From: a virus
Direction: 5' to 3' (one strand)
Length of the DNA stretch: 22,799 bases
Virus record (IMG/VR): IMGVR_UViG_3300032265_000488
Coordinates: 1 to 22,799 of that record
Position 1 is the first letter of the stretch. Every line of letters starts with the position of its first letter. This document shows, one piece after another, positions 2,432 to 20,392 of this stretch. The notes beneath the pieces were generated by a model. It was given only the letters and a program-made list of their open reading frames with translations. It was not told the DNA's origin and searched no databases. The translations under genes and the position numbers were made by a program.

Positions 2432-3004
2432 ATGTATCTAACCAGCAGACTAGTACGAGCACCCATAATACTCACTCGGCAAGAGCGAGCTATCATAGAT
2501 CGTGATGTGCTATCAGCGGTCATGCCCTGGTATGCTAATGATCATACAGTGGGCCTAGCTACGCATCCCGAACAGGCGGTTAATGCCACAGACATTCCCT
2601 ATATGTTTCATTATCTTATGATACGCACAGTTAATCCCGAACATGAAGGACTTGTAGTAGATCCCGGACTTTATGAGTTTTTTAAAAACATATTTGCTCG
2701 TTGGGCCGCTGCCAATGCTGTACCTTGGACCAAGATCTATAGGGCCAGCCTTAATATGAGTTTTTCAACTGATGCTGAGTTTAGTCTACCGCATGTGGAT
2801 CATACATTTCCACATTGGAACTGGATATGGTATCTGGACACTATTCCCAACACTCCCACAGTGCTATGGGACGATAACTGGCAGATAACAGATGAAATTG
2901 ACTGTGTTGAAGATCAGTGTGTGGCCTTTACTCAACGTCAGCATGCTTGGCGCTATGCTCCGGGATTTTACCGTCGGAGACTAGTGGTCTTTACCTTTAT
3001 CTAA
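2432..3004 (+). CDS. 2OG-Fe(II) oxygenase-like protein (190 aa)
   Basis: The C-terminal half has the double-stranded beta-helix signature: HVD (His121, Asp123) for iron, a distal His (His171 in RQHAWRY) about 48 residues on, and Arg residues (181-183) followed by the hydrophobic strand LVVFTFI, suited to bind the 2-oxoglutarate carboxylate. Proteins of this kind hydroxylate a protein, nucleic acid or small molecule, but the substrate is unknown. Trp-rich stretches (HWNWIWYL) flank the site. The start has a good Shine-Dalgarno sequence. Its end overlaps that of the convergent gene at 3001-3237 by four bases. It is the most divergent of the three oxygenases here. Confidence 0.65.
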   Translation: MYLTSRLVRAPIILTRQERAIIDRDVLSAVMPWYANDHTVGLATHPEQAVNATDIPYMFHYLMIRTVNPEHEGLVVDPGLYEFFKNIFARWAAANAVPWTKIYRASLNMSFSTDAEFSLPHVDHTFPHWNWIWYLDTIPNTPTVLWDDNWQITDEIDCVEDQCVAFTQRQHAWRYAPGFYRRRLVVFTFI

Positions 3005-7653: not shown

Positions 7654-7674
7654 CTATTTATCATGTATTTATCT
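7654..7674 (-). promoter_or_regulatory. Two ATAAATA late-promoter-like elements before the large structural gene
   Basis: On the minus strand AGATAAATAC (7674-7665) and GATAAATAG (7662-7654) lie 19-40 bases before the ATG at 7635, followed by a Shine-Dalgarno CGGAGAA. Both match the T4 late -10 core TATAAATA in 7 of 8 bases. Placement directly before a virion gene makes a late promoter likely. Confidence 0.5.
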
Positions 7675-8531
7675 TAGCTCAGGGCCGCTGCCATGGCTAT
7701 TGACAATGATTTAATGTTTGTGGTACCCACAGTTAAAGTACCCTGGATGGTAGTATTTCCAGCAATACCAACGCCGCCGCTGACTACTAGAGCACCGTTA
7801 TTATAAGCTGTGCTAGGTGTAGTACTGTTAATTGTTGTGGTTCCTGTAGTTGCTCCGACTGACAATGTAGTTGCGGCGCCGGCAAAATTGACTGTAGTTG
7901 CTGTAGTGTTGACTAGTGGAAATGTAGTTGAACTAGTTGTAATTCCACTCGATGAATTAACTGCTACTGCACCTGAACTAGTAAGTCCGGTTAAAGTACC
8001 TAGACTGGTTAAACTTGAAGTTACTACATTACTTGCTAGGGCAGTGCCGGTTAGTGTGCCGGCAGCCGCTACAGTACTACTAGAAACCCATGCAAATCCC
8101 GATCCAGACCAAGATAAAAATGTATTTGAAACAGCAGGGACTGAAATAAATCCAGTAGTATTTGCGCCTGTTTGGTACAGTAGTTGATTAGTAATTCCAC
8201 CTGCTACTGCGGTAGCACGATTAGCAGTGCCTGCGTTTCCTGATATACTACCTGTAATAGTGTTTGTTACAGTTAAATTTACCAATGTACCTACACTGGT
8301 TAAACTTGAATTTGTTACATTTGGAGCTAGCGTGACTCCGGTTAGTGTTGCGGCAGGTGCTTGTGTAACATTATTTTGGGGATATGGAAGTGTTACCCAT
8401 GGATCAATGCCATTACCATATTTTACCTTAAGGGTATCAGTTTCTAATCCCGGTTCACCGCTGGCTAATGTAGGATTAACACTGACCCAATTAGCTGCCG
8501 TATCTCTTCTTAATTTTATTTGTACTGTCAT
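7674..8531 (-). CDS. Fibre-like structural protein with Mtd-N-type head (285 aa)
   Basis: The N-terminus (IKLRRDTAANWVSVNPTLAS, then GEPGLETDTLKVKYGNG, DPW) matches the short beta domain often found at the start of phage tail-fibre and tropism proteins (Mtd N-terminal-like). The remainder is Ser/Thr/Gly/Ala repeats with units such as NSSLTSVGTL and SSLTSLGTL. It ends NIKSLSIAMAAALS, nearly the same tail as the two genes to its right. It follows the 8547-9059 gene after 15 bases with a GGAAAA Shine-Dalgarno-like site. A role in host contact is inferred from composition and the N-terminal domain. Confidence 0.75.
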   Translation of the reverse strand: MTVQIKLRRDTAANWVSVNPTLASGEPGLETDTLKVKYGNGIDPWVTLPYPQNNVTQAPAATLTGVTLAPNVTNSSLTSVGTLVNLTVTNTITGSISGNAGTANRATAVAGGITNQLLYQTGANTTGFISVPAVSNTFLSWSGSGFAWVSSSTVAAAGTLTGTALASNVVTSSLTSLGTLTGLTSSGAVAVNSSSGITTSSTTFPLVNTTATTVNFAGAATTLSVGATTGTTTINSTTPSTAYNNGALVVSGGVGIAGNTTIQGTLTVGTTNIKSLSIAMAAALS

Positions 8532-8546
8532 ATTTTATTTTTCCGG

Positions 8547-9059
8547 TTATGCTAGTGCGGCACCCATTGCTATTGCTAAACTTTTTATATTGATATTACC
8601 AATATATGCGTTTCCACTTACTCTCAATGTAGTTAACGTTCCTACACTAGTTAAACTTGAATTCACTACAGTACTATTTAATGTATTTCCGGTCAAAGTT
8701 CCGGCACTAGCAGTTACAGTTCCAGATGCTCCTAAAACAATACTGGTTCCATTAATAGTAACGGTACTAGTTTTTAAAGTGTTGAAATTATCTACAGTTG
8801 CGTAAGTTGCAAGATTTGACGCTAGTGCATATGAATTAAGATTAGCTAGTGTTGCGTACTGACTTAGTTTAGCAGAAGTAGCATACTGTGTTAGGTCGGG
8901 TCTATTAATAAGATCAGTGTAGTTGCCGCTAGTAGCTACCGATGCTAGACTTGGCTGGCCTAAGGTCCAATTTATTCCATTCCATACCCAAGTGGCGCTG
9001 CCGGTAGAGTATGATTGATATAGTGTTGGATTTGAAGGAAATGTTACAGAAACTGTCAT
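8547..9059 (-). CDS. Fibre-like structural protein (170 aa)
   Basis: The head differs from its neighbours: VTFPSNPTLYQSYSTGSATW followed by VWNGINWTL, a short Trp-rich beta module common in phage fibres. Next come YAT-containing repeats (QYATSAKLSQYATLANL, SYALASNLATYAT) that look like a trimeric shaft, then the NSSLTSVGTL unit. It ends NIKSLAIAMGAALA. It starts four bases after the stop of the 9064-9612 gene. Likely a virion fibre component; the exact position is unknown. Confidence 0.7.
   Translation of the reverse strand: MTVSVTFPSNPTLYQSYSTGSATWVWNGINWTLGQPSLASVATSGNYTDLINRPDLTQYATSAKLSQYATLANLNSYALASNLATYATVDNFNTLKTSTVTINGTSIVLGASGTVTASAGTLTGNTLNSTVVNSSLTSVGTLTTLRVSGNAYIGNINIKSLAIAMGAALA
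8554..8588 (-). repeat. 35-bp direct repeat, copy A
   Basis: 34 of 35 bases match 9071-9105. Both copies encode the end of the shared C-terminal peptide. Near identity at DNA level suggests recent duplication, gene conversion or strong constraint. It would allow recombination that swaps or deletes the 8547-9059 module. Confidence 0.8.
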
Positions 9060-9063
9060 GATA

Positions 9064-9612
9064 TTAGGCCAGTGCGGCTCCCATTGCTATTGCTAAACTT
9101 TTTATGTTAACTCCGCCTATAATTGCAGTTGGTACTGTTAGTGTGCCTGTGAGTACAGGATTAGCTATAGGTGCCTTAAGAGCAAGTGCAGATGTTTGAG
9201 ATGAAGTAGTTACATATGAACTTAGACTTGCTTGTGTGGCATAGGTACTACTTGCTGTAGCAGTTGTTAGATATGAACTTAGACTTGTTTGTGTGGCATA
9301 GGTACTACTTGCTGTAGCAGTTGTTAGATATGAACTTAGGCTTACTTGTGTGGCATAGGTACTACTTGCTGTAGCAGTTGTTAGATATGAACTTAACGCA
9401 GTATTTCTAGCAGTAATCGTATCATATGAGTTAAGTAAATTACTAGTCCATGTTTGGGTAGCAAGTTTAATACCACCTTGACTAGTACCATTCATTACTC
9501 TAATAGTGCCGTTGGTAGAATCGTAGACTATATCGCCATTCATGTAGCTTAGGCGATCTAACTCTACACTGGCGTATGGGAATAATTTAACAGAATGTAC
9601 TGTTTTGCTCAT
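9064..9612 (-). CDS. Fibre-like structural protein with 19-residue tandem repeats (182 aa)
   Basis: The N-terminal ~55 residues (LFPYASVELDRLSYMNGDIV onward) form a distinct module. Then come three near-perfect copies of a 19-residue unit, SYLTTATASSTYATQxSLS, encoded by a 57-bp tandem repeat (9214-9384). The C-terminus is NIKSLAIAMGAALA, identical in its last 14 residues to the 8547-9059 product. The repeat suggests an extended shaft. An AAGGA lies 10 bases before the ATG, and a TAAATA element a little further upstream. Likely a virion fibre or related surface protein. Confidence 0.7.
   Translation of the reverse strand: MSKTVHSVKLFPYASVELDRLSYMNGDIVYDSTNGTIRVMNGTSQGGIKLATQTWTSNLLNSYDTITARNTALSSYLTTATASSTYATQVSLSSYLTTATASSTYATQTSLSSYLTTATASSTYATQASLSSYVTTSSQTSALALKAPIANPVLTGTLTVPTAIIGGVNIKSLAIAMGAALA
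9071..9105 (-). repeat. 35-bp direct repeat, copy B
   Basis: Partner of 8554-8588 with one mismatch. It encodes the C-terminal peptide of the 9064-9612 gene. Confidence 0.8.
9214..9384 (-). repeat. 57-bp tandem repeat, three units, inside a fibre-like gene
   Basis: Units begin at 9214, 9271 and 9328, and a partial fourth at 9385. The period is exactly 57 bases, that is 19 codons, so copy-number changes keep the reading frame. Units differ by only a few bases. Slippage could vary fibre length. Confidence 0.9.
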
Positions 9613-9649: not shown

Positions 9650-10093
9650 TTATTCTTTGTGGTAGTACTGATAGTTTACTGATGTTTCGTTTGTTTTGTG
9701 TACTGTAGCACCGTTTTTTAGATGAAAACGTCGAGCCATTTCAGTTTGCGGACTTAGTGTAACAATATTTTTAACATCTTTAAATTCACCTAAAATCCAT
9801 TCGGCAGCCTGTTTAATTAATGCGGCGCCCGCGCCTGGTTTATAACTCCAGATAGTATAAAATACTGCTGTATTTTTATCTTTGCCCATGTTAATTAAAT
9901 CTTGTTCGTCTTTAGGTATATCGCTTAACCATTGCAGGCAAGTGGCCGCTAGTATTTCTTCTCCTGCTCGAAGAATTAAAATTTCAGCAGTTTCATTTAT
10001 ACGCTGGCTTAAAGGAATATGTGGACGCACTGGGTCGTCCTGAATAACTCTAGTAAGGGGATCATCGGTTGAGCGTAAGTGGTATAGTTCCAT
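9650..10093 (-). CDS. GNAT-like acetyltransferase (147 aa)
   Basis: Strand-helix order fits a small GNAT fold: a central strand pair around EEILAATCLQWL and TAVFYTIWSYKP, a Gly-containing turn then helix (GAGAALIKQAAEWILGEF, about residues 92-109) where acetyl-CoA would bind, then NIVTLSPQTEMARRFHLKNG (about 114-133), a typical GNAT strand and helix. The end is YQYYHKE. The canonical Q/R-x-x-G-x-G/A motif is only loosely kept, so activity is uncertain. It lies alone between gp41 and the fibre genes, with an ATAAGTACG element upstream. The substrate is unknown. Confidence 0.5.
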   Translation of the reverse strand: MELYHLRSTDDPLTRVIQDDPVRPHIPLSQRINETAEILILRAGEEILAATCLQWLSDIPKDEQDLINMGKDKNTAVFYTIWSYKPGAGAALIKQAAEWILGEFKDVKNIVTLSPQTEMARRFHLKNGATVHKTNETSVNYQYYHKE

Positions 10094-11590: not shown

Positions 11591-12142
11591 TTATTTTAGC
11601 AAAGGTCCAGTGAACCATATTGAAAGCGTTTTTCTATTACCTTTTGTTACAGGAGTCACTCTGTGGTAAGTCCACGATGGAAATACTATAACTGAACCTG
11701 GTGTATCTAATTCTAAAATCCGCCGTGGACCGCCTTTTAAAAACAATTCAAAATGGCCGCCTTCGTATTCTTCGTCTGACAGATTAACTATAGCTGTTAG
11801 TTTAACGTCCCATATATCGTTTTCTCTATAGTCTTGATGCCAACCATATTCACCGTTGACCTCTGATTGATATTGATTGTAGTTTACACATATTCTGTCG
11901 TTTAGATCATAGAGATCTAGACCAAAACACATTTGATTTGTAAAAATAACATGCTGTTCTAAATCTTTAATATAATCTTTAGCAAGTTTCCAAGCTACTA
12001 GATCAACCTTTGCAGATTTAACTACTCCCAATGATGGAATGTCTTTAGCCGGTGTTATTTTACAATCTCGTTCCAAATTAGAACAAATTTCTTGACATTG
12101 TTCTTTTGAATAAAACGGGCGGACATAGTAGTGACTTTTCAT
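11591..12142 (-). CDS. 2OG-Fe(II) oxygenase, prolyl-4-hydroxylase type (183 aa)
   Basis: The iron-binding triad is clear: HQD (His102, Asp104) and a distal His160 in WTYHRV, with the usual PGSVIVFPS strand before it. A basic residue (Arg170 or Lys171) is placed to hold 2-oxoglutarate. The region between them (LTAIVNLSDEEYEGGHFEL) is typical of this family. Its ATGA start overlaps the stop of the 69-aa gene. The placement between primase and helicase suggests expression during replication, but the substrate is unknown. It is clearly distinct in sequence from the oxygenases at 2432 and 16600. Confidence 0.85.
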   Translation of the reverse strand: MKSHYYVRPFYSKEQCQEICSNLERDCKITPAKDIPSLGVVKSAKVDLVAWKLAKDYIKDLEQHVIFTNQMCFGLDLYDLNDRICVNYNQYQSEVNGEYGWHQDYRENDIWDVKLTAIVNLSDEEYEGGHFELFLKGGPRRILELDTPGSVIVFPSWTYHRVTPVTKGNRKTLSIWFTGPLLK

Positions 12143-14220: not shown

Positions 14221-14233
14221 TAAAGTATTTATG
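14221..14233 (-). promoter_or_regulatory. ATAAATACT late-promoter-like element before the virion-type gene
   Basis: The minus strand reads CATAAATACTTTA (14233-14221), then AAAGG before the ATG at 14207. It lies at the start of the divergent plus-strand gene, so the two starts share DNA. Confidence 0.45.
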
Positions 14234-14605
14234 GCAAAATTAAGAGACAATATAGAACAAAATCTACCGTTTATCAGCGTTATTAACTATGGCGAGGATG
14301 AATACGTAGGTATCATAATAAATCAGGATCAGTTCGTAACTAGCTTTTACGACCTTAATTCTATACGGACTCCCGAGGAAAAAACACTTTTTCTCGAAAT
14401 AGGAGAAATATGGTGGTGGGAGTCAAATCGACAGTTTCCCATTAACATATTCTGTAGAGAACAAATTGCGCCATTTCACTACGCTGTAAAAACCTTTAAC
14501 AGCAAAGATACTCGTATTATACTAGGGCCTGTGGTTAATTTGATGAACTTGACTATGAAGAGAGTTAAACGAAAATCAGTCCAACTTGTGCGTAAAATCA
14601 AGTAA
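14231..14605 (+). CDS. Plus-strand hypothetical protein (124 aa from ATG)
   Basis: The frame is open from a TTG at 14177, but the first ATG is at 14231 (MAKLRDNIEQNLPFISVINY). A TTG at 14192 would add 13 residues (LKFFASGGTFKVF) that also look protein-like, so the true start is uncertain. The product has a folded-protein composition (EDEYVGIIINQDQFVTSFYD, GEIWWWESNRQFPINIF) and a very basic C-terminus (MKRVKRKSVQLVRKIK). Its end overlaps the end of the 14576 gene by 30 bases, and its start is divergent from the 14207 start. It is the only plus-strand gene in this part. The basic tail suggests nucleic-acid contact; the family is not recognised. Confidence 0.7.
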   Translation: MAKLRDNIEQNLPFISVINYGEDEYVGIIINQDQFVTSFYDLNSIRTPEEKTLFLEIGEIWWWESNRQFPINIFCREQIAPFHYAVKTFNSKDTRIILGPVVNLMNLTMKRVKRKSVQLVRKIK

Positions 14606-15163
14606 ATTTTCAATAATTAAATTCATCTGTACTACAATTACATGTGCATAGGCAATAGCATGTGCCTTTTTAAAATAGTACTCATCGTTTTCGGGCCTTG
14701 CCCAAATATCGCCCATTACTGTATCCCAGTCTTTCCCGATTAGATAGCGTTTTGCAGGGCGTATCATAGCCAAAACTGCTGCCAGTTGTTCTATACTGCT
14801 TGGCTTCATCTGACGGAGAATAGAACCATGTCCATTCACATGAAATAATTTGTTTGTGAAGTCGTCTTCTAGTAGTAGGTCCCATAAGGGTTCAGTCTCC
14901 AATAGTTTAGTTAAGTGCTCTTTATTTTTAACACCTTCATAGACGCTTACATTTAAAAAATCTATCTTAAAATAGCCCCTATCTTCTGCTTTTTTGTAAT
15001 CTATAGTACTTAGCCCAGTTAACGGATTGTAGGGAATGGACGTACAATATATACCAGTGTTGTGCTTTTTAAAAGTTCCATTATCGTCAATAGCCGCAGT
15101 GACATGCTTGAACTTTTCAAGTGCTTTTTCTCTATCAAAAAAGTCTATATCGATATCTGGCAT
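14576..15163 (-). CDS. Miniature DnaE-like (C-family DNA polymerase) protein (195 aa)
   Basis: The protein opens with MPDIDIDF (1-8), the form of the catalytic motif of bacterial polymerase III alpha (MPDFDVDF, E. coli Asp401 and Asp403). FKIDFLNV (65-72, Asp68) corresponds to KFDFLGL (Asp555), the third catalytic Asp. Two further DnaE-like blocks follow in the right order: KPSSIEQLAAVLAMIRP (120-136, compare KPDCFEDMIALVALFRP) and FKKAHAIAYA (164-173, compare FNKSHSAAYA). DnaE is about 1160 aa, so PHP, most of the fingers, and the OB and tail domains are missing. The start shares a base with the upstream stop. Homology is inferred from motif order; activity is unknown. It may be a regulator, a decoy or a remnant rather than an enzyme. 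Confidence 0.6.
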   Translation of the reverse strand: MPDIDIDFFDREKALEKFKHVTAAIDDNGTFKKHNTGIYCTSIPYNPLTGLSTIDYKKAEDRGYFKIDFLNVSVYEGVKNKEHLTKLLETEPLWDLLLEDDFTNKLFHVNGHGSILRQMKPSSIEQLAAVLAMIRPAKRYLIGKDWDTVMGDIWARPENDEYYFKKAHAIAYAHVIVVQMNLIIENLLDFTHKLD

Positions 15164-15855
15164 TATAAATTACTCTCTCTAACCACCTGCCGAACTAGTT
15201 CTATATCTGCTGGCAATTTTTTAAATTTGTTTAACCAAAAAGGAATATCCATAACTGTATTGATAGCAGTCAATTGTTCGTCGTTGAATTTTTTCACCAT
15301 TTCTTTACCACTAGCCGAATTTAAAACAAGCCAAGGGCTTATTTTTCCATCTTTGATATCGAATGTTGCTCGACTTAGACTTACATAATGGAAATAATGA
15401 TCCCATTGTGAGTTGTTATCATTAGCCCACGATAACATATGACTAATACTGCGCTCTAATGCGACTTCTACCGGTTCACTTTTAATTAAGTGTACAACAT
15501 AATTATCATACAACTCATCTCTACACCAGTGGTCTAATTTAACTCCGCTAGTTACAACATAGTTAATAAACTTGTCAGGATATAAAGGATTAACATTGCT
15601 GACAAAACTGCCAAATTTGACAAACGCATTGTAGTAAGGACTCCTAGCAAATTCTTCATAGGTTTTATCACCCTTATGATTTTGACTCATCTTATAAAAT
15701 TTATTAAATGTGTCATAGCCTAGTATTACATGTTTTTCAGTACGTGCTAGATATCTACGCTTCTGTTCACACACGTGAACAAATAGAGTTTTCTCCTGCA
15801 TAAACCCTTTATTACAAAATTGACAGATAAACGGCTGACTGATCAATGACATCAT
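15163..15855 (-). CDS. Zinc-finger-like protein of unknown function (230 aa)
   Basis: The N-terminus carries a C2HC-like finger: Cys10-x2-Cys13 (FICQFCNKGF), then HVC with His27 and Cys29, followed by basic KRR. The remaining 200 residues are mixed alpha/beta with many aromatic residues (SPYYNAFVKFGSFV, YFHYVSLSRATFDI) and no motif that I know. The start overlaps the upstream stop (ATGA) and the stop overlaps the DnaE-like start, so the two are probably co-translated. DNA or protein binding through the finger is an inference. Confidence 0.75.
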   Translation of the reverse strand: MMSLISQPFICQFCNKGFMQEKTLFVHVCEQKRRYLARTEKHVILGYDTFNKFYKMSQNHKGDKTYEEFARSPYYNAFVKFGSFVSNVNPLYPDKFINYVVTSGVKLDHWCRDELYDNYVVHLIKSEPVEVALERSISHMLSWANDNNSQWDHYFHYVSLSRATFDIKDGKISPWLVLNSASGKEMVKKFNDEQLTAINTVMDIPFWLNKFKKLPADIELVRQVVRESNL

Positions 15856-16599: not shown

Positions 16600-17223
16600 T
16601 TAGTCCTTAGGTAATAAAATAGCGTCAAATGCCATAACAGTTCTATTGCCGACTCCACGCCAAGGGTACACAGTATGTGGTATATGACTTGGAAATAATA
16701 TCATAGTGCCAGGAGTTGGTTCATATTTCCATGTGTCGTTCATAATAAATTTACTCACGTCCTTAGTATGCGGTAATCTAAACAATATCTTACCATCGCT
16801 AGGATGACTATTATCGGCTAATTCAGGTGCGCTAATATAAATGTTACCACTCAAATGTCCTCGAGGGTGTGAATGCATTTCTTGATAGTCGCCTTGGTGC
16901 TGTCTAATAGTCCAAACACTTACAATTTTAACCTTGCATAGTTTTAATTCTTCGGCGCCACTTTGTGCAGTAATTAATTCTAAATATCCCTGGCAAATAC
17001 TTTCTAGCCAAGGTACTAACCACTCAACATCTAGCCCTAGTTGGTTAGGATACACCTGTATCTGTTGTCCGCCACGAACACTGATTAACGGATCTCCGCT
17101 ATCATTTAATTCAGGATGCAAATGTAAAGTTTCAGCTAGGCTGAATATTTTACTAAACTGTACCGGAGGTACATCATCTATAGCTATTGTTGTGGGTTGA
17201 AAATAAGCAACTTTTAGTGTCAT
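16600..17223 (-). CDS. 2OG-Fe(II) oxygenase, TIGR02466/PF13759-like (207 aa)
   Basis: The motif MHSHPRGHLSGNIYI (His117, His119) matches the HxHP-x-SG-YY signature of this oxygenase family. The distal part PGTMILFPSHIPHTVYP supplies His183, and Arg194 follows in GNRTVMAFD for the co-substrate. The first ~100 residues are typical lead-in (helix and strands, LVPWLESICQGYLELI). Such proteins are very common in marine T4-like phages, and their substrate is unknown. The start overlaps the upstream stop (ATGA). Confidence 0.85.
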   Translation of the reverse strand: MTLKVAYFQPTTIAIDDVPPVQFSKIFSLAETLHLHPELNDSGDPLISVRGGQQIQVYPNQLGLDVEWLVPWLESICQGYLELITAQSGAEELKLCKVKIVSVWTIRQHQGDYQEMHSHPRGHLSGNIYISAPELADNSHPSDGKILFRLPHTKDVSKFIMNDTWKYEPTPGTMILFPSHIPHTVYPWRGVGNRTVMAFDAILLPKD

Positions 17224-17732: not shown

Positions 17733-19199
17733 TTATTTTTGCCAATCTATCTTATCAATAGTAAATGGATATTTGGCATCCTTGTAAAATTTCTTACGTT
17801 CAGTAAGATGTCTTTTTGCGTATTTGCAGGTACTAGTTATATCCCAGATTTGTACGAAGTCTTTGTCTTCGGCTTTTCTAATGCCTCGGCCAATTGATTG
17901 TATAACCCTAACAAAGCTCTTTCCGGGCTCCAGAAGAACCATATTAAAAATCCTAGGGATATTAATACCAACAGCGGCCACACCGTAAGTCGCCACAATA
18001 ATCTTGTTATCGCTTGTTTTAACTTCGTCATACTCTTCTTTTCTATCTTTAGTTTTAACTTCACCTGATACAAATACTGCGTCGGGTATTTCATTTATTA
18101 TAAATTTGCCTGAATCAATTCTATTAACTAGAACTAGAGTATTGCCTGTTAGAGATATTTTTTTAATTAATTTTGAGATATAGATCATTCTGTCATCATC
18201 AGTGACGAGATATTTTAATTCTTCTGCATAGCCGGTAAATTCTGGTAAATCTATCATTTGAACTACGTTTACATGGCAGTTACTTAAAACTCCCATTGCT
18301 TGTAACTCGTGTGCTTTAATGCCTCCGACTACCGGACCAATTGATGCAAATATGCTCTCGCTTTCAAATTTTTCTTTAGGTACAGTGCCAGTCAACCCCC
18401 AACGTATTGCGGCATTACACAGATTTTGCGTAAGTAGATTCTTTAGCACTTCTGCTTTGGCCATGTGTACTTCGTCAACAATAACTGTCTTTACACCGTC
18501 AAGGAATTCTGCTAGCGTAACAATTTCTTGCTCATGATTTTTACTTTTCTTGTCTAAAATGTTTAAACTTTGCCATGTGCATATTGTATGTGTTTTGTTT
18601 AAATCTTTACGATCACCATAGTATACACCCACATCTAATCCAACAGTAATAAAATCTTCTTCTGTTTGTTCTACTAGACTTTTATTAGGAACAATAGTAA
18701 TTGTACGACCTAGTTTTTCACATAGTTGTGATAGTGTTGCTGTAGTGATAGTCTTGCCAGCCCCTGTGGCAATTTCTTGTAAGGCCTGGGGTGTTTCAAG
18801 GAACTTATTAATTGCTTCTACTTGGTAGTCACGTAACATGATAGGTTGGCCTTCTTGTTGGTGACCTTTTGGCCACACTTTACCTTGGTCAGCCCAGTAT
18901 GTTTCAGTAACAGGTGTAAATTCTATCTTAGGAGTAACTCGCAGATCTTCTACATCTTCAATACCAATACCCATCTTACCTAAAATACCCAAGATAGTTT
19001 CTAGCTGATTTAGATATCCGTTACCACCGAGACCAAACAAGCTAACCATACCGTCCCAGCGTCCTAATTTAAAAGCCGGATGATATCTAGCGTATGGAAT
19101 TTCATATTTAAAAGCATTAGCCAGTTTCTTACGAGCTTCTAAAGGTAAGCCTTCTAACTTAATATTAACCTCATCTCGTATCACTAGTTTAACAGTCAT
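17733..19199 (-). CDS. uvsW: UvsW-type DNA/RNA helicase (488 aa)
   Basis: In T4, UvsW is a superfamily-2 helicase that unwinds branched DNA and R-loops and shifts origin- to recombination-dependent replication. The motifs are complete: Walker A ATGAGKT (144-150), Walker B as DEVH (242-245), motif III-like GLTGT (268-272), and motif VI QSIGRGIRK (434-442). The N-terminal ~120 residues (RYHPAFKLGRWDGMVSLF) form the small UvsW-specific domain. The size is near that of T4 UvsW (503 aa). It overlaps the 403-aa gene upstream by four bases. Confidence 0.95.
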   Translation of the reverse strand: MTVKLVIRDEVNIKLEGLPLEARKKLANAFKYEIPYARYHPAFKLGRWDGMVSLFGLGGNGYLNQLETILGILGKMGIGIEDVEDLRVTPKIEFTPVTETYWADQGKVWPKGHQQEGQPIMLRDYQVEAINKFLETPQALQEIATGAGKTITTATLSQLCEKLGRTITIVPNKSLVEQTEEDFITVGLDVGVYYGDRKDLNKTHTICTWQSLNILDKKSKNHEQEIVTLAEFLDGVKTVIVDEVHMAKAEVLKNLLTQNLCNAAIRWGLTGTVPKEKFESESIFASIGPVVGGIKAHELQAMGVLSNCHVNVVQMIDLPEFTGYAEELKYLVTDDDRMIYISKLIKKISLTGNTLVLVNRIDSGKFIINEIPDAVFVSGEVKTKDRKEEYDEVKTSDNKIIVATYGVAAVGINIPRIFNMVLLEPGKSFVRVIQSIGRGIRKAEDKDFVQIWDITSTCKYAKRHLTERKKFYKDAKYPFTIDKIDWQK

Positions 19200-20386
19200 A
19201 GCATAGTTCTTTTTTCAAATAATACAGGTGCATCTGCCCACTCAATAATTAAATCACAACAGTTAGAGTATACACTAGTTTTGCCGTGACGTAAACCCAT
19301 CTTAGTATCAAGTGCAATCACACTCATCGGTTGCCATGTATTTTTCAGGAAAAATTTTGGAATTTTTCCACTTTGCACAACAGCAATCTTAGTGGTATTA
19401 TCTAGTGGATGATTAAATTTATTATCTTTAATAAGTTGATTAAATTTTTGTCCGGTTTGATTATTAGGCAATCTAAAATAAATTCCGACGCCTGAATCTA
19501 GACCGTTATTTTCCAAAGATTCCTTCAAAATTTCCAGATTTTTTAGTGATTTTTCATCGTCTGAATTTTCAAACACAACTAGGGTTGGTAGTCTTTTTAA
19601 ACTATTAAGTGCGTCTAGTATTTCAGTCATAGTGTGTTCATTTTTGTTAATCCACACTTTGGTCTCAGATCTGTTGGCAATAAATTCCACCAAATTTTCA
19701 CCTGGATTTTTAGGATTTTCCACAAAATACTGGTAACGGACACTTCGGTCATTTATAATATTTTGATCTATCGAGGTTTCTATACCCAAGTCCTCGGTAA
19801 TGTATTTTTGAAAGTTTTTATTTTCAAAATTTGTAATTAGATATTGATTTTCAAATTCTGTTTTTGACCAAGATTTAATGATTTTGTAAAAATCCTGGAT
19901 TTTTCCGTCTATCGTAAAATCAAACGGTGCTAGTGTATCGACTAACAAGACGATATTTTTTTCTGTTAGTTCTGCTTGATAAAACTTACCATTAGAGGTA
20001 AAGTTACCTTCTACAACTTTATTAAGGTCACCTAAAATTTTCCTAATTTGAGGATTGAATGTGAACTCTATGGTTAAAAACTGGCCATTATCTCGATCGT
20101 TTTCAATCGTTAGTGTTCTTATCTGTTCTATCTGCCTAAAGCTCTTAGACCAAACAGGGGTCACTATGGCTTCTGTTATTTTCTTATCAAATTCAGTTAA
20201 TTTTTTTTGATTTTCTTTGAGAATTTTTACTAATAATCTTGATTGACTCTCAGTAATAAACGTAGGTCGCTTAGTTGCGGCTTCTAAACTGGTTAGCGTA
20301 TCAAAGTCACGTTTAGTCAATACCGACTTTGCATAATCGTCAGGTTGACATAATATTTCTACTAGTAAGTTATCAATAGTCATCAT
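19196..20386 (-). CDS. Unknown protein heading the uvsW operon (396 aa)
   Basis: A longer frame starts at a TTG at 20407, but that lies inside the promoter, so I prefer the ATG at 20386 (or 20383, MTIDNLLVEIL). The sequence is Lys/Asn/Glu-rich with many Phe, and shows no Walker, zinc or catalytic motif. The C-terminal ~130 residues look most ordered (SGVGIYFRLPNNQTGQKF, IPKFFLKNTWQPMSVIALD, YSNCCDLIIEW). Between UvsY and UvsW it is well placed for a recombination or replication factor. I recall similar hypotheticals beside uvsW in aquatic T4-like phages, without a name. Its stop overlaps the uvsW start (ATGA). Confidence 0.8.
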   Translation of the reverse strand: MMTIDNLLVEILCQPDDYAKSVLTKRDFDTLTSLEAATKRPTFITESQSRLLVKILKENQKKLTEFDKKITEAIVTPVWSKSFRQIEQIRTLTIENDRDNGQFLTIEFTFNPQIRKILGDLNKVVEGNFTSNGKFYQAELTEKNIVLLVDTLAPFDFTIDGKIQDFYKIIKSWSKTEFENQYLITNFENKNFQKYITEDLGIETSIDQNIINDRSVRYQYFVENPKNPGENLVEFIANRSETKVWINKNEHTMTEILDALNSLKRLPTLVVFENSDDEKSLKNLEILKESLENNGLDSGVGIYFRLPNNQTGQKFNQLIKDNKFNHPLDNTTKIAVVQSGKIPKFFLKNTWQPMSVIALDTKMGLRHGKTSVYSNCCDLIIEWADAPVLFEKRTML

Positions 20387-20392
20387 ACAGTA

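Follow-up and report, generated by a model that had tools for sequence, protein, structure and literature searches.

What can a protein of 195 residues retain of the bacterial replicative polymerase DnaE, and what would a T4-like phage do with it? The question is raised by an open reading frame at 14576-15163 on the minus strand of IMG/VR record IMGVR_UViG_3300032265_000488, the whole of which is the 22.8 kb stretch analysed here (the window). The frame begins with ATG, and a preliminary description had noted in its translation four sequence blocks in the order in which they occur in DnaE; all four (MPDIDIDF, FKIDFLNV, KPSSIEQLAAVLAMIRP and FKKAHAIAYA) are present in that order. We consider it probable that this gene encodes the C-terminal half ('B') of a split, two-chain minimal DNA polymerase III alpha of T4-like jumbo phages, comprising palm strands with the metal-binding aspartates and a reduced fingers domain, and that the two halves assemble, catalyse nucleotide addition and serve in a secondary role.

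Homology, conserved residues and predicted fold

The profile search proposed in the preliminary description gave DnaE matches well above noise. In PHROGs, phrog_11778 ('DNA polymerase') aligned with residues 3-187 over profile positions 8-195 of 197 (E=1.3e-69), and phrog_405, the full-length phage DnaE family with a profile of 1190 positions, also matched (E=1.6e-8). Pfam and NCBIfam returned DnaE matches only below their thresholds, because the protein is a small and divergent piece, and PF00136, the Pfam family of the family-B polymerases such as T4 gp43, gave no match. A single-sequence search of the PDB was weak (E=0.058); the identity was resolved by a profile search with the family, in which DNA polymerase III alpha accounted for nine of the ten rows at E<=1, the best being 5lew (1.7e-4) and 7pu7 from M. 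tuberculosis (5.2e-4). A profile built from 138 relatives matched E. coli DnaE collinearly at positions 399-420, 596-641 and 750-767, with a full-sequence E-value of 3.4e-6 computed against this single sequence. The similarity to DnaE is homology, not chance. At least 555 relatives are encoded in IMG/VR and there are 90 phage records, the nearest named relative being that of Atu_ph07 (53% identity). A scan of bacterial contigs with the 121Q homologue, which used short-motif seeds and was non-exhaustive, yielded no relative among bacterial or prophage sequences, and a bacterial origin of the gene was set aside.

In C-family polymerases, three aspartates bind the two catalytic metals and a GRGS loop binds the incoming nucleotide. 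The three aspartates that had been matched to E. coli D401, D403 and D555 align as proposed and are invariant in 138 of 138 relatives: D3 and D5 (D401 and D403) lie in MPDIDIDF (residues 1-8; 15140-15163, minus strand), and D68 (D555) lies in KID (residues 66-68; 14960-14968, minus strand) together with K66, the invariant equivalent of K553. KID is part of FKIDFLNV (residues 65-72), whose KIDFL block was paired by motif with E. coli VKFDFLGL (552-559). Upstream of it, HNTG (residues 34-37; 15053-15064, minus strand) corresponds to E. coli HAGG (511-514), the palm strand after the deleted thumb. The segment KPSSIEQLAAVLAMIRP (residues 120-136; 14756-14806, minus strand) is the fingers segment at E. 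coli positions of about 624-640, and FKKAHAIAYA (residues 164-173; 14645-14674, minus strand) corresponds to FNKSHSAAYA (756-765), with H168 equivalent to H760. Residues identical in all 138 relatives are D3, D5, D7, H34, G37, K66, D68, P121, R135, P136, K138, F164 and H168, and the C-family fingers segments KPxSIEQLAAVLAMIRP and FKKAHAxAYA are near-invariant. The length and boundaries of the protein are near-constant across these relatives, and pairs with unsaturated synonymous sites give dN/dS values of about 0.06-0.12. Purifying selection acts on the family.

The structure prediction that had been suggested as a further check also yielded a fold that matches DnaE. An AlphaFold2 model built with 48 relatives as input (mean pLDDT 93.6) places D3 and D5 in or next to the first strand (4-8) and D68 within the strand 66-71. 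Its top 13 Foldseek matches in the PDB are all C-family polymerases (best E=4.4e-4), including Pol III alpha of Thermus, Mycobacterium and E. coli, as well as inhibitor-bound entries named 'DNA polymerase' that we take to be PolC. Among viral models, the named matches up to E ~0.05 are phage DNA polymerases, several of which are labelled DnaE. These structural matches are partial, with TM-scores by query of about 0.4-0.6 and, for several, a large rmsd over long alignments, as expected of a protein that lacks the thumb and parts of the fingers. The protein spans E. coli DnaE from position 399 to soon after 767, with the ~90 thumb residues (421-509) replaced by ~13, and its alignment to E. coli DnaE contains no PHP domain, thumb, (HhH)2, OB or clamp-binding motif.

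The partner half on a distant gene of the relatives

The GRGS dNTP-binding loop is absent from the window protein and, in its relatives, is carried by a partner chain. When complete relatives were searched with phrog_405, a second open reading frame of 170-180 aa was found to match family positions 360-437. It covers the DnaE segment immediately before the part encoded in the window, includes the dNTP-binding loop as GRGSS, identical in 75/75, and ends in ...WGVGRGSSVASYVLYLIGVHKIDSIKYKLDWKEFLR. This partner half passes the Pfam family PF07733 (DNA_pol3_alpha NTPase domain) with 48.5 bits against a curated cut-off of 23.9, and it corresponds to phrog_11127, which PHROGs labels 'DNA polymerase', as it does phrog_11778. 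The first 13 PDB matches of its model (pLDDT 87.6) in Foldseek are all C-family polymerases, with weak E-values (best 0.029) and probabilities up to 1.00. The partner profile aligns to E. coli positions 322-392 and ends at 392/393, and the window protein starts at 399, indicating that the active site is cut between its dNTP-binding and metal-binding halves, just before the PDxDxDF strand. Together, the two halves are predicted from these alignments to restore the palm and a shortened form of the fingers, with the PHP domain, the thumb and everything past the fingers gone. The preliminary suggestion that the window protein is a small polymerase or nucleotidyltransferase on its own is not supported, because the half of the palm with the GRGSS loop is encoded by a separate gene.

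Both halves are present, in one copy each, in 14 of 14 tested IMG/VR records of at least 220 kb and in one of 181 kb; both are also present in Atu_ph07, Phosso, PAC2, 121Q, RAS14, SCTP-2 and Vibrio 2.275.O. The distance between them is usually tens to hundreds of kilobases (about 15 kb in RAS14), and the records with one half only are 133-213 kb fragments. The window shows no partner gene, and the split is observed in the relatives only; because the record is only 22.8 kb, we infer the partner in the window's own phage. No natural fusion of the two halves occurs among 138 loci of half B and 80 of the partner half (A), and the BFVD entry A0A249Y020, with 374 aa, has the right size for such a fusion.

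These phages also encode another polymerase. A T4-type family-B polymerase was detected in 24 of 24 larger relative records and was not found in four fragments of 141-154 kb; every tested phage carrying both halves has it (the 14 IMG/VR records of at least 220 kb and the named phages). A family-A polymerase was considered as the replicase of these phages and rejected, as no match exceeded the cut-off.

Gene neighbourhoods of the two halves

The preliminary description had placed a reduced DnaE-like palm in a T4-like phage, and both the family-B polymerases of the relatives and the gene neighbours agree with this. In the window, the polymerase gene is flanked by a UvsX-UvsY-UvsW-SSB group on one side and by a primase-helicase pair on the other, the helicase being of the gp41 type. 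The same layout surrounds the polymerase half in PAC2, 121Q and Vibrio 2.275.O, and part of it is found in Phosso, Atu_ph07 and SCTP-2. Two further genes accompany half B in most of the 144 loci searched, the flanks of which differed in length: the convergent gene phrog_11637 (124 aa; 14231-14605, plus strand), which overlaps B by 30 bp at the 3' ends, in 136, and phrog_11058 (230 aa; 15163-15855, minus strand), directly upstream of B, in 140. The product of phrog_11058 has a possible N-terminal C2H2 finger that is not significant in Pfam, and we regard it as a candidate partner. The tail-to-tail and mostly overlapping arrangement of phrog_11637 with the polymerase half is maintained even in distantly related jumbo phages.

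The partner half has fixed neighbours of its own. In 80 of 80 loci, the next genes are an uncharacterised one, of about 110 aa and with a motif resembling VNARGDELGPGG, and a GroES-like one; in 69, a gp44-type clamp loader follows as well. These linkages of the two halves were not found in the sections of Iyer et al. 2021 (PMC7824862) that we consulted.

Several other genes of the window deserve mention in their own right. Between UvsW and UvsY lies a 397-aa open reading frame (19196-20389, minus strand) with no significant Pfam or PHROG match, which is present in 58 of the 144 related loci and whose place is taken in 121Q by a gene for a DnaQ-type exonuclease. Three consecutive tail-fibre-like frames on the minus strand (7674-8531, 8547-9059 and 9064-9612) end in a near-identical C-terminal peptide (NIKSLAIAMGAALA / NIKSLSIAMAAALS), and this common tag may act as a signal for docking, trimerisation or processing. 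Three 2OG-Fe(II)-oxygenase-like frames occur within 23 kb (2432-3004, plus strand; 11591-12142 and 16600-17223, both minus strand), and all of them match phrog_274, whose PHROG label 'endonuclease V' looks like a mislabel of the 2OG-Fe(II)-oxygenase fold. Finally, a 147-aa frame (9650-10093, minus strand) scores above the Pfam cut-off of the malonyl-CoA decarboxylase C-terminal domain and is more likely a protein of the GNAT acetyltransferase fold.

The proposed two-chain enzyme and its comparison with known systems

In the mechanism that we propose, the window half would supply the palm strands with the two-metal aspartate triad (D3, D5 and D68) and the trimmed fingers, or template-binding, segment, and the partner chain would supply the N-terminal palm with the GRGSS loop for the dNTP or triphosphate. 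Once assembled, the two chains would form a single active site, with its break between E. coli positions 393 and 398, and the pair would add nucleotides by standard two-metal catalysis. Neither the LRRAMGKKK helix of the DnaE fingers (about 708-716 in E. coli) nor any part of the thumb has an equivalent in the pair, so that DNA synthesis is not assured. The enzyme would be held at its site by partners, which may be the clamp and clamp loader, SSB or the neighbouring gene products, and would work beside the family-B replicase in a secondary role. Such a polymerase is probably distributive, and because it has no thumb, PHP, HhH, OB or clamp region and a family-B replicase is present, a distributive, partner-recruited auxiliary role is the most likely one. 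This role is most likely gap filling, recombination-coupled repair or lesion bypass; the position of B among recombination genes and of the other half next to a clamp loader favours, as a matter of context, gap filling or recombination-repair.

It is conceivable, though rather unlikely, that the polymerase has more than two chains, with the products of phrog_11058, phrog_11637 and the gene downstream of the partner supplying the missing thumb, DNA-holding or tethering functions. If so, it would be a multi-subunit C-family polymerase for phage recombination-repair, encoded by at least two distant operons. We consider it improbable that the two-chain complex is a nucleotidyltransferase that does not copy a template into DNA, such as a terminal or RNA/nucleotide-modifying transferase with a Pol-beta-type palm. 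In favour of this reading, the thumb and much of the fingers are missing, and the palm is of the Pol-beta nucleotidyltransferase fold (PMC7824862). However, the C-family-specific fingers segments are kept near-invariant and both genes reside in replication neighbourhoods, which argues against this alternative.

A decoy or regulator of host replication, the other role raised in the preliminary description, is very improbable. The small size of the protein and the second polymerase of its relatives would suit a catalytically dead binder of host DNA polymerase III or of its clamp or template, but the metal- and dNTP-binding residues, which a decoy would not need, are all invariant in both halves, and the family is spread over phages of very different hosts. 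Although the other half was called 'truncated' in one phage paper (CBB_328, PMC5259590), an origin as the decaying remnant of a full-length DnaE gene acquired from a host is virtually precluded by the near-constant length and boundaries of 138 relatives, the dN/dS of about 0.1, the conserved synteny and the strict co-occurrence with the other half. Residue invariance and dN/dS thus exclude decay and argue against a catalytically dead decoy, and we rejected both readings in favour of the two-chain polymerase.

This enzyme does not represent a new class, since both of its halves are already labelled 'DNA polymerase' in PHROGs and the split was described by Iyer et al. 2021 (PMC7824862). Group 2.2 jumbo phages, including Atu_ph07, are reported there to have a 'phage-specific minimal version' of the alpha subunit, made of two proteins from distant genes, for which cooperation with the family-B enzyme or a role in repair is suggested. 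In earlier papers, only a truncated alpha subunit had been recognised for CBB_328 (PMC5259590) and only a single alpha subunit for Atu_ph07 (PMC6102473). The split polymerase of Iyer et al. is a prediction, and our analysis reached the same conclusion independently. Judged from its sequence, the window protein is a further member of this family, with phrog_11778 as the C-terminal and phrog_11127 as the N-terminal unit. In the relatives of the window protein, as in the system described there, an NTP-binding protein and a Mg2+/template-binding protein are encoded at distant loci in the same phages and coexist with a family-B polymerase; unlike it, the window member comes from an uncultivated phage and its partner gene lies outside the window. 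Relative to the sections of that paper that we consulted, our analysis adds the exact seam, the invariance of both half-sites and the fixed neighbours of each half.

The prediction dates from 2021, and no biochemical test, published activity or other experimental characterisation of the split polymerase was found in the literature searched; the terms 'polymerase III', 'DNA polymerase' and 'split' do not occur in a 2026 review of jumbo phages (PMC13282480). Among jumbo phages that have a family-B replicase as well, the split polymerase is widespread. Should it prove active, it would be a C-family polymerase of exceptionally small size, with an active site shared between two independently encoded proteins, and it would reveal the parts of Pol III alpha that catalysis needs. 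It would also bear on whether the C family originated from small modules, as proposed in PMC7824862, or whether phages reduced a larger enzyme.

With bacterial DnaE and PolC, the window protein has in common the equivalents of D401, D403, D555 and K553, the fingers blocks with R639/P640 and H760, and the predicted fold. The bacterial enzymes, however, are chains of ~1160 aa, whereas the window protein has 195 aa, leaves the N-terminal palm to another chain and is without the PHP domain, thumb, LRRAMGKKK helix, HhH, clamp motif and OB. T4 gp43, a family-B enzyme, has homologues in the genomes of the relatives, encoded by a separate gene, and its fold and family are unrelated to those of the window protein. 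The full-length DnaE-like polymerases of phrog_405 are likewise C-family polymerases of phages, but they are single long host-like chains, whereas the family described here is split and reduced and has a family-B replicase alongside it.
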